Shown piece by piece: positions 239 to 4,189 of a stretch of 64,000 nt of DNA. Positions within the stretch are counted from its first letter, which is position 1; each line of letters opens with the position of its first letter. The notes beneath the pieces were generated by a model. That model saw nothing but the letters and a program-made list of their open reading frames with translations. It was not told the DNA's origin and did no database searches. Where the stretch lies: positions 2,143,501 to 2,207,500 of the forward strand of contig NZ_CP085876.1 of the NCBI RefSeq assembly GCF_013284245.2, written 5' to 3'. This stretch comes from Brevibacillus sp. DP1.3A (GTDB lineage Bacteria > Bacillota > Bacilli > Brevibacillales > Brevibacillaceae). The translations under genes and the position numbers were made by a program.

Positions 239-505
239 TCACTTGAATACGTATTGCTCCAATTGCATTTTGAGGGCGTCAATTCCGATGGCGAAGCCCA
301 AGCATTGGCTGGATTGAATGATGAATGCATTGAGACCAACGACTTCCCCATTCAAATTAATGAGTGGACCTCCGCTATTTCCTGGGTTAATGGCAGCATC
401 CGTTTGAAAAATTTCTTCGTACATTCGCTTCGCAACCTGTAAGCGGCGGTTTTTGGCACTGATGATCCCCGCTGTCACAGAATTTTCCAAACCAAGTGGG
501 GAACC
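239..505 (-). CDS. HtrA-like serine protease, 3' part (carries catalytic Ser), separated by element
   Basis: This is the C-terminal 88 residues of a trypsin-like (S1C/HtrA) protease, reading from VGSPLGLENS through the active-site motif NPGNSGGP to the stop at 239. The Ser corresponds to residue 196 of the reconstituted protein. It has no start codon or ribosome site of its own; upstream of 505 the frame runs into element DNA. The missing N-terminal part, with His and Asp, is at 3729-4189 on the same strand. Joining the two at the shared GAACC gives one continuous 241-codon frame (240 aa), with the sequence VISVGSPLGLE expected for this family. In the integrated state neither half can be an active protease. 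There is no PDZ domain, so the restored protein would be a minimal protease domain. Confidence 0.88.
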   Translation of the reverse strand, partial: GSPLGLENSVTAGIISAKNRRLQVAKRMYEEIFQTDAAINPGNSGGPLINLNGEVVGLNAFIIQSSQCLGFAIGIDALKMQLEQYVFK

Positions 506-508
506 AAC
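493..508. repeat. Left junction (attL) of the element
   Basis: A 16-base window matches the right junction at 13 positions; all three differences are purine transitions (495, 500, 506). The longest identical block containing the frame-restoring crossover is GAACC at 501-505. It falls in codons Gly-Ser of the conserved GSPLGL segment of the protease. Confidence 0.75.
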
Positions 509-539
509 TGTCGCCATACAGGCAAAATTAGGGGCAATT

Positions 540-1991
540 TCAGTGAAAAGACAAAAGATGCAGGCAGACCTCTCGATTTTTCTGACCAGAGGCAGTGTCT
601 GTTGCTTCCGCGTCAACACGTTGGATGAGTGTGCACACGAGTAATCGCCGTTCTTTTTCATTTGCATGCGTCCAAATGAGATGCCAATTAGAAAGGGCAT
701 TTAGATCAAGCGGTTGTCCTTTTGAAAAAGCAGAGTATGTCCGTTCCCGTTCTTTTGCAGCCAGCTCCAACGCACTGATTTTCTCTCGTAAGGCAGGGAG
801 AGTAAGGAATCCCTCTTCATAAGCTTGTTCCCAGCGCTGCCTCCGAATTTGCAGCTGTTGCTCGGTTTCTTTCGCGGGAGCGCGGGAATTCGTCTGTAAA
901 ACAGTCTGATACACGTCCTTCAACGCAGCGATTGACTCTGGCGAATGCTGCATCAGCTCGTGCACAATGGCTTTTTCCAAGCGATCCTCACGTATGGCAG
1001 GAGCCTCACACGTACCAGCCAGCTTGTTTTTACATAAATAGTAGCGGTGCGTGTAACGCTTTTCTCCTTTTCCCGTGATTGTGGTTGTTTTGCCACGCAT
1101 AGAGGAGCCGCAACGCGAGCAGTACAGCAATCCGGAAAAGAGGTAGCGGGAGCTGAGAACGCGGGGATGGCTTGTGCCGCGAGTACTCATCCGTTCCTGC
1201 ACCCGCGAGAAACAAGGCTGATCGATGATGGCGGGGTGAGTTGCCTCTTCGATAATCCATTCCTCCGGGTCATTGCGTTGTTGATCGGCGTCGGTGTAAT
1301 TCCAACGCAACGCACCATGATAGACCGGATTTTTTAACAAGCGAAGCACGGCACTTGCACTCCATGAAGCGCCATTTTTGCCGCGCAATCCAGAATGATT
1401 CGCCCATTCTGCGATTTGGCGCGGAGATTCGCCTCGATCATAGCGCTCGAACATGCTACGTACGCCATCTGCTTCCATTTGATTCACGACCAGCGTTCCT
1501 CGCACCAGATTGTATCCAAATGGTGCAGGTCCTCCTGGTCGTTTTCGTTCTCTTGCCATCTGGCTCATACCCAGCTTGACCCGTTCCGCCAAGTTTTCCC
1601 GTTCCCATTGTGCGAGGGCAGCCACTAAGGTTATAAACAGTCGCCCGATTGCCGTAGTCGTATCGTAAACCTCGGTGCAGCTTTTAAAGTGTACCGCATG
1701 TCGATCGAACTCCTGTAGGAGCTGATACAGATCAAGGACAGAGCGAGTGAGCCGATCGAGTCGATAGACGAGGACGACATCGATTTCGCCCGTTCGAATA
1801 TCCTGCAGGAGCTGACCGAGTGCGGGGCGATTCGTATCTTTGGCACTTACGCCTTCATCTGCGTAAACTGCATGGACTTCCCAACCTTGGGAGTGAACGT
1901 ACGAGAGCAGTTTTTCCCTTTGAGCGGGGATCGAAAATCCTTCACGTGCCTGATCCTCCGTACTGACACGAATGTAGACGGCCGTTCGCAT
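540..1991 (-). CDS. Large serine recombinase (site-specific integrase/excisionase)
   Basis: Site-specific DNA recombinase of the large serine family, the group that includes SpoIVCA and phage integrases, 483 aa. The catalytic resolvase domain spans about residues 1-150, with nucleophile Ser10 in YIRVSTEDQ, Arg8, and the YRLDRLTR motif near residues 76-83. A recombinase domain (about 155-260), a zinc ribbon with Cys291, Cys294, Cys320 and Cys328, and a charged coiled-coil segment (about 370-430) follow. The start is placed at the second in-frame ATG, because GGGAGG lies seven bases upstream of it; an ATG at 2009 lacks a site. The gene ends 35 bp from attL, the usual position of integrase genes next to their att site. 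A hairpin terminator separates it from the upstream hxlR gene, so it has its own promoter. All key residues are present, so it is probably active. Confidence 0.93.
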   Translation of the reverse strand: MRTAVYIRVSTEDQAREGFSIPAQREKLLSYVHSQGWEVHAVYADEGVSAKDTNRPALGQLLQDIRTGEIDVVLVYRLDRLTRSVLDLYQLLQEFDRHAVHFKSCTEVYDTTTAIGRLFITLVAALAQWERENLAERVKLGMSQMARERKRPGGPAPFGYNLVRGTLVVNQMEADGVRSMFERYDRGESPRQIAEWANHSGLRGKNGASWSASAVLRLLKNPVYHGALRWNYTDADQQRNDPEEWIIEEATHPAIIDQPCFSRVQERMSTRGTSHPRVLSSRYLFSGLLYCSRCGSSMRGKTTTITGKGEKRYTHRYYLCKNKLAGTCEAPAIREDRLEKAIVHELMQHSPESIAALKDVYQTVLQTNSRAPAKETEQQLQIRRQRWEQAYEEGFLTLPALREKISALELAAKERERTYSAFSKGQPLDLNALSNWHLIWTHANEKERRLLVCTLIQRVDAEATDTASGQKNREVCLHLLSFH

Positions 1992-2041
1992 CGCCCGTCC
2001 TCCCTTCATCTCGGGTTGCTAGAGTCTACAGCAAAAGGGAG

Positions 2042-2050
2042 GAGCTTATG
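2042..2050 (-). promoter_or_regulatory. Possible mother-cell-type -10 for the recombinase gene
   Basis: Minus-strand CATAAGCTC resembles the sigma-K/E -10 CATANNNTA with one mismatch and lies about 50 bases upstream of the start codon, downstream of the hxlR terminator. No convincing -35 is seen. Weak evidence, given only because the element's layout suggests sporulation control. Confidence 0.25.
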
Positions 2051-2590: not shown

Positions 2591-2622
2591 ATCGCGAAAT
2601 AAGAAGCAAAGAGGGTGTTACG

Positions 2623-3696
2623 ATGCTTTCGAAACGGGTAATCGGCATTTTAACCTGGCGGGAAGGTGTACGCTTTGAGGAGCCAGATTATTTGCGAAAG
2701 CTGGTTCAAACAGGGCAAAAGCTAGGCGCGGAAATCTACCTGTTTTCGCATCAGGACGTCAATGTTCCCGCAAGAAAGATCAAGGGCTTCATCCCAAAAC
2801 CGAACGGGGGGTGGATAAGTAAATCGTTCCCTTGGCCAGAAGTTGTAATCGATCGGTACCGCCGCAGGGTAAAGGAGTATATCCGGCTAAGGAATAGCGA
2901 TCTGTTTTTCTTTGCAAACAGTCCGTTCAGTAAGAAATGGAGAGTGACGAATCTGCTCGCTTCCGATGAACGCGTCAAACGCTGGATTCCGGAGACGCAT
3001 ATTTACGAAAAAGGCTTGGTCCGAAACATGCTCGCACGCCATGGGCTTGTCTATGTCAAGCCAGGCAATGGCACAGGGGGAAGAAGCATCCTCAGAGTGA
3101 AGAGCAGCGGCAAGGAGTATAGCCTCTCTGGACGTGACAAAAAGCATAACTATCGTGTTGCCCGGATTGATACGGTGGAAGGCGTGGAAAAATGGGTCAA
3201 AACGTGGGTGGAGGAACAGCGTATTCGCGATGGTAATTTCCTGGTGCAACAAGGATTGGACCTAGGACTGCTACGCAAGCATGTCGTCGATGTCCGGCTA
3301 TTGATTCAAAAAGACGAGCGTGGGGAGTGGGCGGTGACAGGCTGCGCAGTACGCATGGGAGAGAACGGCAGTGCTACTTCCAATTTGCATGGTGGAGGCA
3401 AAGCGATTCCCTTTGAATGGTTTATGTCCAGGCGATTTGGAGGGGAGCGGGGAGAGCTGATCAAACAGGAATGTTATCGGCTTGCTTTTGATGTAGCAAA
3501 CACGCTCGAGGACTATTTCGGCCGCATGATGGAATTCGGACTGGACATTGGGGTGGATGTGGACGGACGTGCGTGGTTAATCGAAGTGAACCCCAAGCCG
3601 GGGAGAGAGGTTTTTCGCCAGATGGGTGACATGGCGCTATACAAAAAGGCGATAGCTCGTCCCGTTCAATTTGCGCTGTATTTGGCCCGGAACTAG
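2623..3696 (+). CDS. YheC/YheD family endospore coat-associated ATP-grasp protein (element cargo)
   Basis: A 357-residue protein of the YheC/YheD family, which in Bacillus associates with the endospore coat and has an ATP-grasp-like fold. The opening residues VIGILTWREG, the central loop YVKPGNGTGGRSIL (about 144-157) and the C-terminal LIEVNPKPGREVF, a metal/nucleotide-binding type Glu-x-Asn motif, support this. The start ATG has AAGAGGGTG upstream. It is the last gene of the element, ending 33 bp before attR. It is the only cargo with a suggested cell function, and that function is sporulation. On excision it would leave with the circle, so mother-cell dosage or expression might change. The substrate of the ATP-grasp domain is not known. 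Confidence 0.88.
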   Translation: MLSKRVIGILTWREGVRFEEPDYLRKLVQTGQKLGAEIYLFSHQDVNVPARKIKGFIPKPNGGWISKSFPWPEVVIDRYRRRVKEYIRLRNSDLFFFANSPFSKKWRVTNLLASDERVKRWIPETHIYEKGLVRNMLARHGLVYVKPGNGTGGRSILRVKSSGKEYSLSGRDKKHNYRVARIDTVEGVEKWVKTWVEEQRIRDGNFLVQQGLDLGLLRKHVVDVRLLIQKDERGEWAVTGCAVRMGENGSATSNLHGGGKAIPFEWFMSRRFGGERGELIKQECYRLAFDVANTLEDYFGRMMEFGLDIGVDVDGRAWLIEVNPKPGREVFRQMGDMALYKKAIARPVQFALYLARN

Positions 3697-3720
3697 GCTC
3701 GTTTTTTGTCTCTTTGAACA

Positions 3721-3736
3721 CAGGTGGAGAACCGAC
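3721..3736. repeat. Right junction (attR) of the element
   Basis: Partner of the window at 493-508 (13 of 16 identical) with identical core GAACC at 3729-3733. Protease coding resumes immediately outside it with the codons for WVISV-GSP. Confidence 0.75.
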
Positions 3737-4189
3737 GCTAATGACCCATTCTCCTACTTTTGTATGAGAGGAGTTGCCGAGTGGCAGCGGATATAGCTTG
3801 CAGTCTGCATCAATTTTGATGACGGCGTAATCCCGGACTCGATCAGCTATAATGCGTTTGGCTTCAAACACTCTACCGTTATATAGCTTCACGAAAATGT
3901 TTTTGGATTTGCCGATGACATGCTCGCTCGTCAAGATATACCCTTTCGGATGAAAAAGAAATCCGGAGCCAAAGCTTCGTTCCATGGGTGGAGAATTATC
4001 TTCATGATCAATGAGGCTGCGAATTAACGAATCCACGTCTTTGGAATGGGGAGCATCTTCGGTCACGATGGAGACTACTCCCTCTTGAACTCGCTCGACA
4101 ATGGGAACGAAGAAATTAAATGGGTGCAGACTGCTGCTGCTCACAGGGTACTTTACCCGCGTATATTGGGACCATTTTTTACTTTTCAC
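3729..4189 (-). CDS. HtrA-like serine protease, 5' part (carries catalytic His and Asp), separated by element
   Basis: The N-terminal 153 codons of an S1C/HtrA-type protease. GTG start with GGGGGAGAG just upstream. It has no signal peptide or membrane segment, unlike typical membrane HtrA, so the protein is probably cytoplasmic. Catalytic His90 is in ILTSEHVIG and Asp120 in VRDYAVIK; LGNSSHTKVGEWVISVG leads to the break at Gly153-Ser154. In the integrated state the frame continues into element DNA for about 90 nonsense codons to a stop at 3461. That chimera lacks the catalytic Ser. Excision fuses it to 239-505, giving a 240-aa enzyme with the triad His90/Asp120/Ser196. A minus-strand CATAAGATG at 4223-4231 vaguely resembles a late-sporulation -10. 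Confidence 0.88.

Follow-up and report, generated by a model that had tools for sequence, protein, structure and literature searches.

Can a protease gene that lies in two pieces on a bacterial chromosome be put back together, and what would the cell gain from the interruption? The question is raised by a locus of Brevibacillus sp. DP1.3A found in a window of 64,000 nucleotides (the whole stretch of DNA analyzed; contig NZ_CP085876.1, positions 2,143,501 to 2,207,500), where the gene of an HtrA-like serine protease is interrupted by a 3228-bp element encoding a large serine recombinase. Judged from comparative sequence data, we consider it quite probable that this compact and mostly vertically inherited element is excised by its own recombinase at a GGTTC core in the mother cell during sporulation, restoring a protease predicted to act late in spore formation. 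That the element is excisable and restores the protease is strongly supported, because one related genome (G002) carries the empty site, an intact gene and an element-type recombinase are listed on separate contigs of Brevibacillus sp. H7, the attachment (att) half-sites are symmetric and the broken gene is under purifying selection. A sequence-only reading of the locus had proposed a developmental gene switch acting on a protease: the excisable, gene-restoring element stands, while its mother-cell timing in sporulation is inferred from promoter consensus and from analogy.

A protease gene in two pieces

The interrupted gene and the element comprise the following features.

Exon 1: 3729..4189, minus strand; N-terminal part of an S1C (HtrA-like) protease with GTG start, His90 and Asp120; Pfam Trypsin_2, profile positions 1-90
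Exon 2: 239..505, minus strand; C-terminal protease part (GSPLGLENS...) with Ser196 within GNSGGP; Pfam Trypsin_2, profile positions 83-144
Intervening element: 501..3728, no strand assigned; 3228 bp

The sequence GAACC (plus strand) is present at 501-505 and again at 3729-3733, with a spacing of 3228 bp. Joining the exons at this core, GGTTC in the orientation of the gene, produces 723 nt encoding 240 amino acids plus a stop, free of internal stop codons. The sequence-only reading had recognized two same-strand halves of one protease around 3228 bp and a shared GAACC in the same codon phase at both junctions; both points are confirmed by the Trypsin_2 matches of the two halves and by the open join. 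Its placement of the catalytic residues also proved right, His90, Asp120 and Ser196 being invariant in a 37-row alignment of relatives.

The AlphaFold model of P0001, an intact relative (97% identity; 37-row alignment), has a mean predicted local distance difference test (pLDDT) score of 84 and finds its best Foldseek match in the HtrA protease domain 1l1j (E 5.3e-21, 42% identity). The junction falls at the end of the strand 148-153 and separates the part carrying His and Asp from the part carrying Ser, so that neither half holds the full triad. No PDZ domain is listed for the intact proteins P0001 (240 aa) and P0002 (238 aa), whose entries give Trypsin_2 and Trypsin only, nor for the two halves in the window; by its domain content, the joined product can be described as an S1C-type protease without a PDZ domain. 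As to its substrates, coat or mother-cell proteins would be our guess.

Split and uninterrupted genes among relatives

A search of 26 genomes of the genus, that of DP1.3A included, with the joined protein showed the gene interrupted at one and the same codon in 25 of them, a recombinase of the same kind lying alongside. Across 39 genomes of the order, all belonging to one family, 31 genes are split and eight, G002 among them, are intact. Singly split loci at this position, called site A below, number 26 (the 25 of the genus and G038); the counts on the attachment site of the element (attP) and on selection omit the doubly split loci of G032, G033 and G037 and the locus of B. migulae, which were judged by eye. 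At all 26 singly split loci the exons rejoin in frame and without a stop, giving products of 237-242 aa. A stop codon reported in the C-half match of G001 sits before the junction, and the joined G001 frame is stop-free.

The sequence-only reading had suggested looking in sister genomes for an uninterrupted gene of 240 aa with an empty GGTTC site, and such a gene is present in G002. It encodes 240 residues with 100% identity to the join, and no element-type recombinase was found in that genome (best match 30% identity). Since close relatives of G002 (96-99% in exon 1) carry the element, its absence most likely reflects loss. The G002 junction reads GTC-GGTTC-CCC; exon 1 of the relatives ends in GTC-GGTTC-T or GTC-GGTTC-A, and on their exon 2 side the core is followed by C, which is what a crossover within the core is expected to leave.

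For Brevibacillus sp. H7, the protein database lists an intact protease (P0002, 83% identity) on a contig of 197,375 bp and an element-type recombinase (P0165, 53%) on a contig of 4,192 bp. P0165 is sister to the recombinases of the 25 genus elements (support 100/97). The simplest reading is that the H7 culture held excised chromosomes plus the element; a second insertion elsewhere in the H7 genome is a possible alternative.

Selection was estimated as the ratio of nonsynonymous to synonymous substitution rates (dN/dS) over unsaturated pairs. The medians are 0.048 for exon 1 and 0.019 for exon 2, the protease counts including G002 and G038, and 0.048 for the flanking padR; these similar values make the split gene about as constrained as its intact neighbor, and on this measure both protease halves are under strong purifying selection. 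For the genes of the element, medians reach 0.045 (hxlR), 0.107 (yheCD) and 0.152 (recombinase), the hxlR row of G038 having been left out because its extraction ended at an upstream stop codon (the gene is present). Recombinase distances track those of padR (r 0.894, n 23) and of the protease (r 0.787, n 26), none of 2000 permutations being as high in either case, which argues for a mostly vertical inheritance of the element. No padR was found near the protease in G015-G017.

The recombination site

Where exactly would the strands be exchanged? The sites concerned are listed here.

Recombination core GGTTC, exon 2 side: 501..505, minus strand; crossover inferred from symmetry at TC, 501-502
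Recombination core GGTTC, exon 1 side: 3729..3733, minus strand; TC at 3729-3730
attP left half-site, 25 bp: 503..527, minus strand; 17 of 25 positions symmetric with 3704-3728
attP right half-site, 25 bp: 3704..3728, minus strand; symmetry partner of 503-527

The attP of large serine recombinases consists of symmetric half-sites around a central dinucleotide, and the same arrangement is seen here: circularization of the element brings two 25-bp arms into inverted repeat around the TC of GGTTC. Over the 26 loci, symmetry averages 18.1 of 25 positions (range 14-21) against 6.3 (standard deviation 0.84) at other offsets and 7.0 (standard deviation 2.2) when the attP arms are shuffled, and in every locus the symmetry center outscores all others of the 201 offsets. 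The fraction of symmetric positions is still 0.92 at position 25 and drops to 0.19 at position 26. Symmetry is low at the host site, with 7-11 of 25 positions. The core and frame given by the sequence-only reading were thus right, and the analysis adds a symmetry center at the dinucleotide TC. Unlike in phase-variable invertible DNA, the att sites are in direct orientation at all 26 site-A loci. The recurrence of the same codon in 25 of the 26 genus genomes, the rejoining of all 26 loci and this excess of attP symmetry together make the split more than a matter of chance.

The element and its genes

Three genes are recognized in the element, and a fourth flanks the protease.

Large serine recombinase: 540..2009, minus strand; 489 aa, with a start at 1991 suggested by database relatives of 482-483 aa
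HxlR-family winged-helix regulator: 2104..2451, minus strand; Pfam HxlR, 111 bits
YheC/D-like ATP-grasp protein (cargo): 2623..3696, plus strand; Pfam ATPgrasp_YheCD, 264.5 bits
Flanking PadR regulator: 4436..4969, plus strand; divergent from exon 1 and outside the element

The large serine recombinase noticed beside one junction in the sequence-only reading has the Pfam domains Resolvase, Recombinase and Zn-ribbon and the catalytic serine, as in enzymes of that class, and the motifs RVST and YRLDRLTRS are retained in all 26 aligned recombinases. Element sizes across the genus span 2.1-3.7 kb (longest 3.70 kb). In the 25 split genus genomes, exon 1 is followed in constant order by yheCD, hxlR, the recombinase and exon 2. 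Only in G003 and G025, whose minimal elements measure 2.08 and 2.21 kb, was no yheCD found; there, HxlR is the sole further gene recognized, small frames having not been scanned systematically. HxlR may be a directionality factor or a regulator; a universal role as directionality factor was dropped, since the gene was not found in some elements of the family (see below), and it keeps the status of a candidate.

The element recombinase matches three places in the window genome. A third serine recombinase match (contig C1, 5927500-5934000) has a frame of 373 aa with, by eye, a helix-turn-helix-like frame upstream. Elsewhere in G028 and G030, both with an intact protease, occur recombinases 49% identical to that of the window over about 300 residues.

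Promoters and proposed sporulation timing

When would the gene be restored? Three promoter features bear on this question.

GerE-like box AATTGGGCGTCC: 4249..4260, minus strand; fits the GerE consensus RWWTRGGYNNYY
-10-like CATAAGATGA (CATANNNTGA): 4222..4231, minus strand; sigma-K/sigma-E type
Putative recombinase promoter GGCATA-N16-TGTAGACT: 2023..2052, minus strand; sigma-E-like

In all 39 genomes the motif CATANNNTGA stands upstream of the protease gene, its first base 39-48 nt ahead of the start codon. The GerE-like box is matched strictly in 33 of the 39 and over its last 11 positions in every one; among the 33 strict-box genomes, the distance from the start of the box to CATA is 29 nt in 30 and 30 nt in 3. 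Paired, the 11-mer box and CATANNNT have one further occurrence in 604 kb of locus sequence, both strands counted. Ahead of the recombinase, CATA-N16/17-TGTANANT is present in 25 of the 26 elements, with a spacer of 16 in 24 and of 17 in one. Taken together, the sigma-K/GerE-like and sigma-E-like promoters point to excision in the mother cell during sporulation. In the mechanism that we propose, sigma-E would switch on the recombinase, the element would leave the mother-cell chromosome as a circle and sigma-K with GerE would then transcribe the joined protease gene; HxlR may serve as directionality factor or regulator of the reaction.

The regulators themselves were also considered. A gerE gene is present in the window genome, and sigK scores above the family cut-off in 11 of the 26 genus genomes. 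In the window genome sigK is also split (contig C1, 4624000-4643500), its N and C parts lying 15.7 kb apart, and a second large serine recombinase, 30% identical to that of the protease element, stops about 33 bp short of the C part as matched. A second, apparently truncated copy of gerE lies 10.6 kb downstream of the full gene (contig C1, 4884500-4898000). The idea that gerE is likewise split was rejected: the second copy has the look of a truncated duplicate, and the interval between the copies contains none of the three element-recombinase matches, other recombinases having not been searched for there.

A second insertion site and further recombinase lineages

In G027 and G031 the same gene is split at another position, site B, 10-12 codons further on. 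The recombinases found there belong to a distant lineage, with frames of 535-587 aa and 25-30% identity to that of the window over the matched part. G032, G033 and G037 have both sites occupied, leaving between two elements a micro-exon GSPLGLENSVTA(G) of about 12-13 codons; by eye, the second element of G032 and G033 contains long frames resembling kdp potassium-transport genes. The B. migulae locus shows exon 1, an element at site A and the beginning of a B-type recombinase. Outside the 39 genomes, exon 1 of Ammoniphilus resinae ends at the same GxP codons and is adjoined on the opposite strand by a third recombinase lineage (about 26% identity), the C half lying on another contig.

Because the recombinases at site A in G032 and G033 cluster with those from other places (100/99) and apart from the genus elements, site A may have been hit twice; the fork joining these two to the remaining outside recombinases has a support of just 80/67. 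A different arrangement was observed in G027 (B. dissolubilis; one draft genome), where an element of 11.5 kb at site B has the C exon at its far end in inverted orientation. Recombination there would therefore invert rather than excise, and this locus is possibly an invertible switch or an assembly fault.

From these observations a broader view can be drawn, towards which we lean slightly. In Brevibacillaceae one sporulation protease gene would be spliced at the DNA level, and at least three recombinase lineages (A, distant B and Ammoniphilus), perhaps with a fourth in the g4 elements of G032 and G033, would have settled independently in this gene within about 12 codons of one another. Some species would carry two 'DNA introns', one on each side of a micro-exon of about 12-13 codons, and each mother cell would then need two excisions for one protein. 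With the element cut down to as few as two genes and kept by vertical inheritance, selection may favor the interruption itself, as a safety lock that opens one way and irreversibly on a dangerous protease.

Weighing the explanations

Several observations weigh against sporulation-controlled excision. A genome-wide search for the box with the -10 motif returned five sites, as did the reversed control, and the four other sites are not recognizably located before spore genes, so that the search does not validate the GerE/sigma-K motif in the window genome. The sigma-E-like motif was not found before the recombinase of G038, nor was hxlR found in the g4 elements of G032 and G033, and the directionality factor remains a candidate. 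Finally, the H7 contigs are known from their lengths in a protein listing alone.

Excision could be real and unconnected to sporulation, occurring at a low rate or under stress, in which case the element would be an ordinary small mobile island using the gene as attB. The recombinase indeed resembles temperate-phage integrases, with about 40% identity to that of a Geobacillus phage, and several distant recombinases use the same gene. This is nevertheless improbable in view of the persistence of the element in 25 of the 26 genus genomes while the broken gene stays under purifying selection, of the mother-cell-type promoter motifs and of the three genes recognized in the window's element, none of which is a transfer or phage structural gene.

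A second possibility, that the halves act unjoined and that separately made fragments assemble into a protease, would account for the strong conservation of both. Exon 2 directly follows the recombinase gene and shares its strand, and some in-frame start codon is available within at most 15 codons before it in 21 of the 26 loci. Separate translation of the C half was however rejected: the remaining five loci lack such a start, start codon and position vary among the others, and no conserved ribosome site is visible by eye before exon 2 starts. The run-on of exon 1 past the junction also varies by locus, from 10 to 435 codons, and intact orthologues exist in eight of the 39 family genomes; we hold this alternative to be very unlikely. 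A dead insertion, that is a pseudogene in which excision has ceased, agrees with the lack of any direct sign of excision in the window strain and deserves almost no credence given median dN/dS values of 0.02-0.05 on both halves, recombinase frames open in all 26 elements (435-509 aa, the shortest in G020) and att half-sites in 26 of 26. Excision by the element's own recombinase in the sporulating mother cell is the explanation that we retain.

Comparison with known intervening elements

How does this element relate to those already described in sporulating bacteria? As in the skin element of sigK (Bacillus subtilis, Clostridioides difficile), an internal large serine recombinase would restore the gene by excision, and the C. 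difficile enzyme has the same three Pfam domains as that of the window (PMC5025042). Unlike in skin, the target is a protease and not a sigma factor, and the element is of 2.1-3.7 kb with two or three recognized genes; the window genome also harbors a split sigK, served by a recombinase other than that of the protease element. SPbeta rebuilds the sigma-K/GerE-dependent gene spsM of B. subtilis from an attachment site in the coding frame with inverted repeats at the core (PMC4191935). The Brevibacillus locus shares the att site inside a coding frame and the inverted repeats at the core, and its target may, to judge by the promoter motifs, be of sigma-K/GerE type as well; SPbeta is an active prophage, whereas no phage structural gene was recognized in the window's element.

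The gin element in gerE of Bacillus cereus ATCC10987 is a non-prophage element in which the serine recombinase GirC and GirX rebuild the gene in sporulation; it carries three recombinase genes, and the authors inferred recent transfer between strains (PMC5595907). The element described here is likewise a non-prophage one with a serine recombinase, and it differs in having a single recombinase and a mostly vertical inheritance. The yin element of Clostridium botulinum V73 interrupts the sporulation protease gene yabG and is prophage-like and, according to its authors, unique to one strain (PMC10747680); a protease gene is the target in both cases, that of yin encoding a cysteine protease and that of Brevibacillus a serine protease. 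No report of this protease or of a Brevibacillus intervening element was found in the literature searched, supplementary files, preprints and most subscription journals lying outside the search; in one Brevibacillus paper (PMC9406221), the term 'skin element' occurs in the reference list only.

In the accounts cited, the known sporulation intervening elements are phage-like or inferred to be recent, which makes any benefit of the interruption for the host hard to judge. An element of two or three genes kept genus-wide, with gene halves under selection and several lineages in the same dozen codons, makes the question of interruption as a lock directly testable in Brevibacillus, and the minimal form (recombinase and HxlR) would provide a small excision unit whose 50-bp attP is defined. 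By the features compared, the element thus appears to be of the skin, SPbeta and gin type in kind, and to differ from them in its target, its small size, its few genes, its mostly vertical descent throughout the genus and the doubly split loci found among its relatives.

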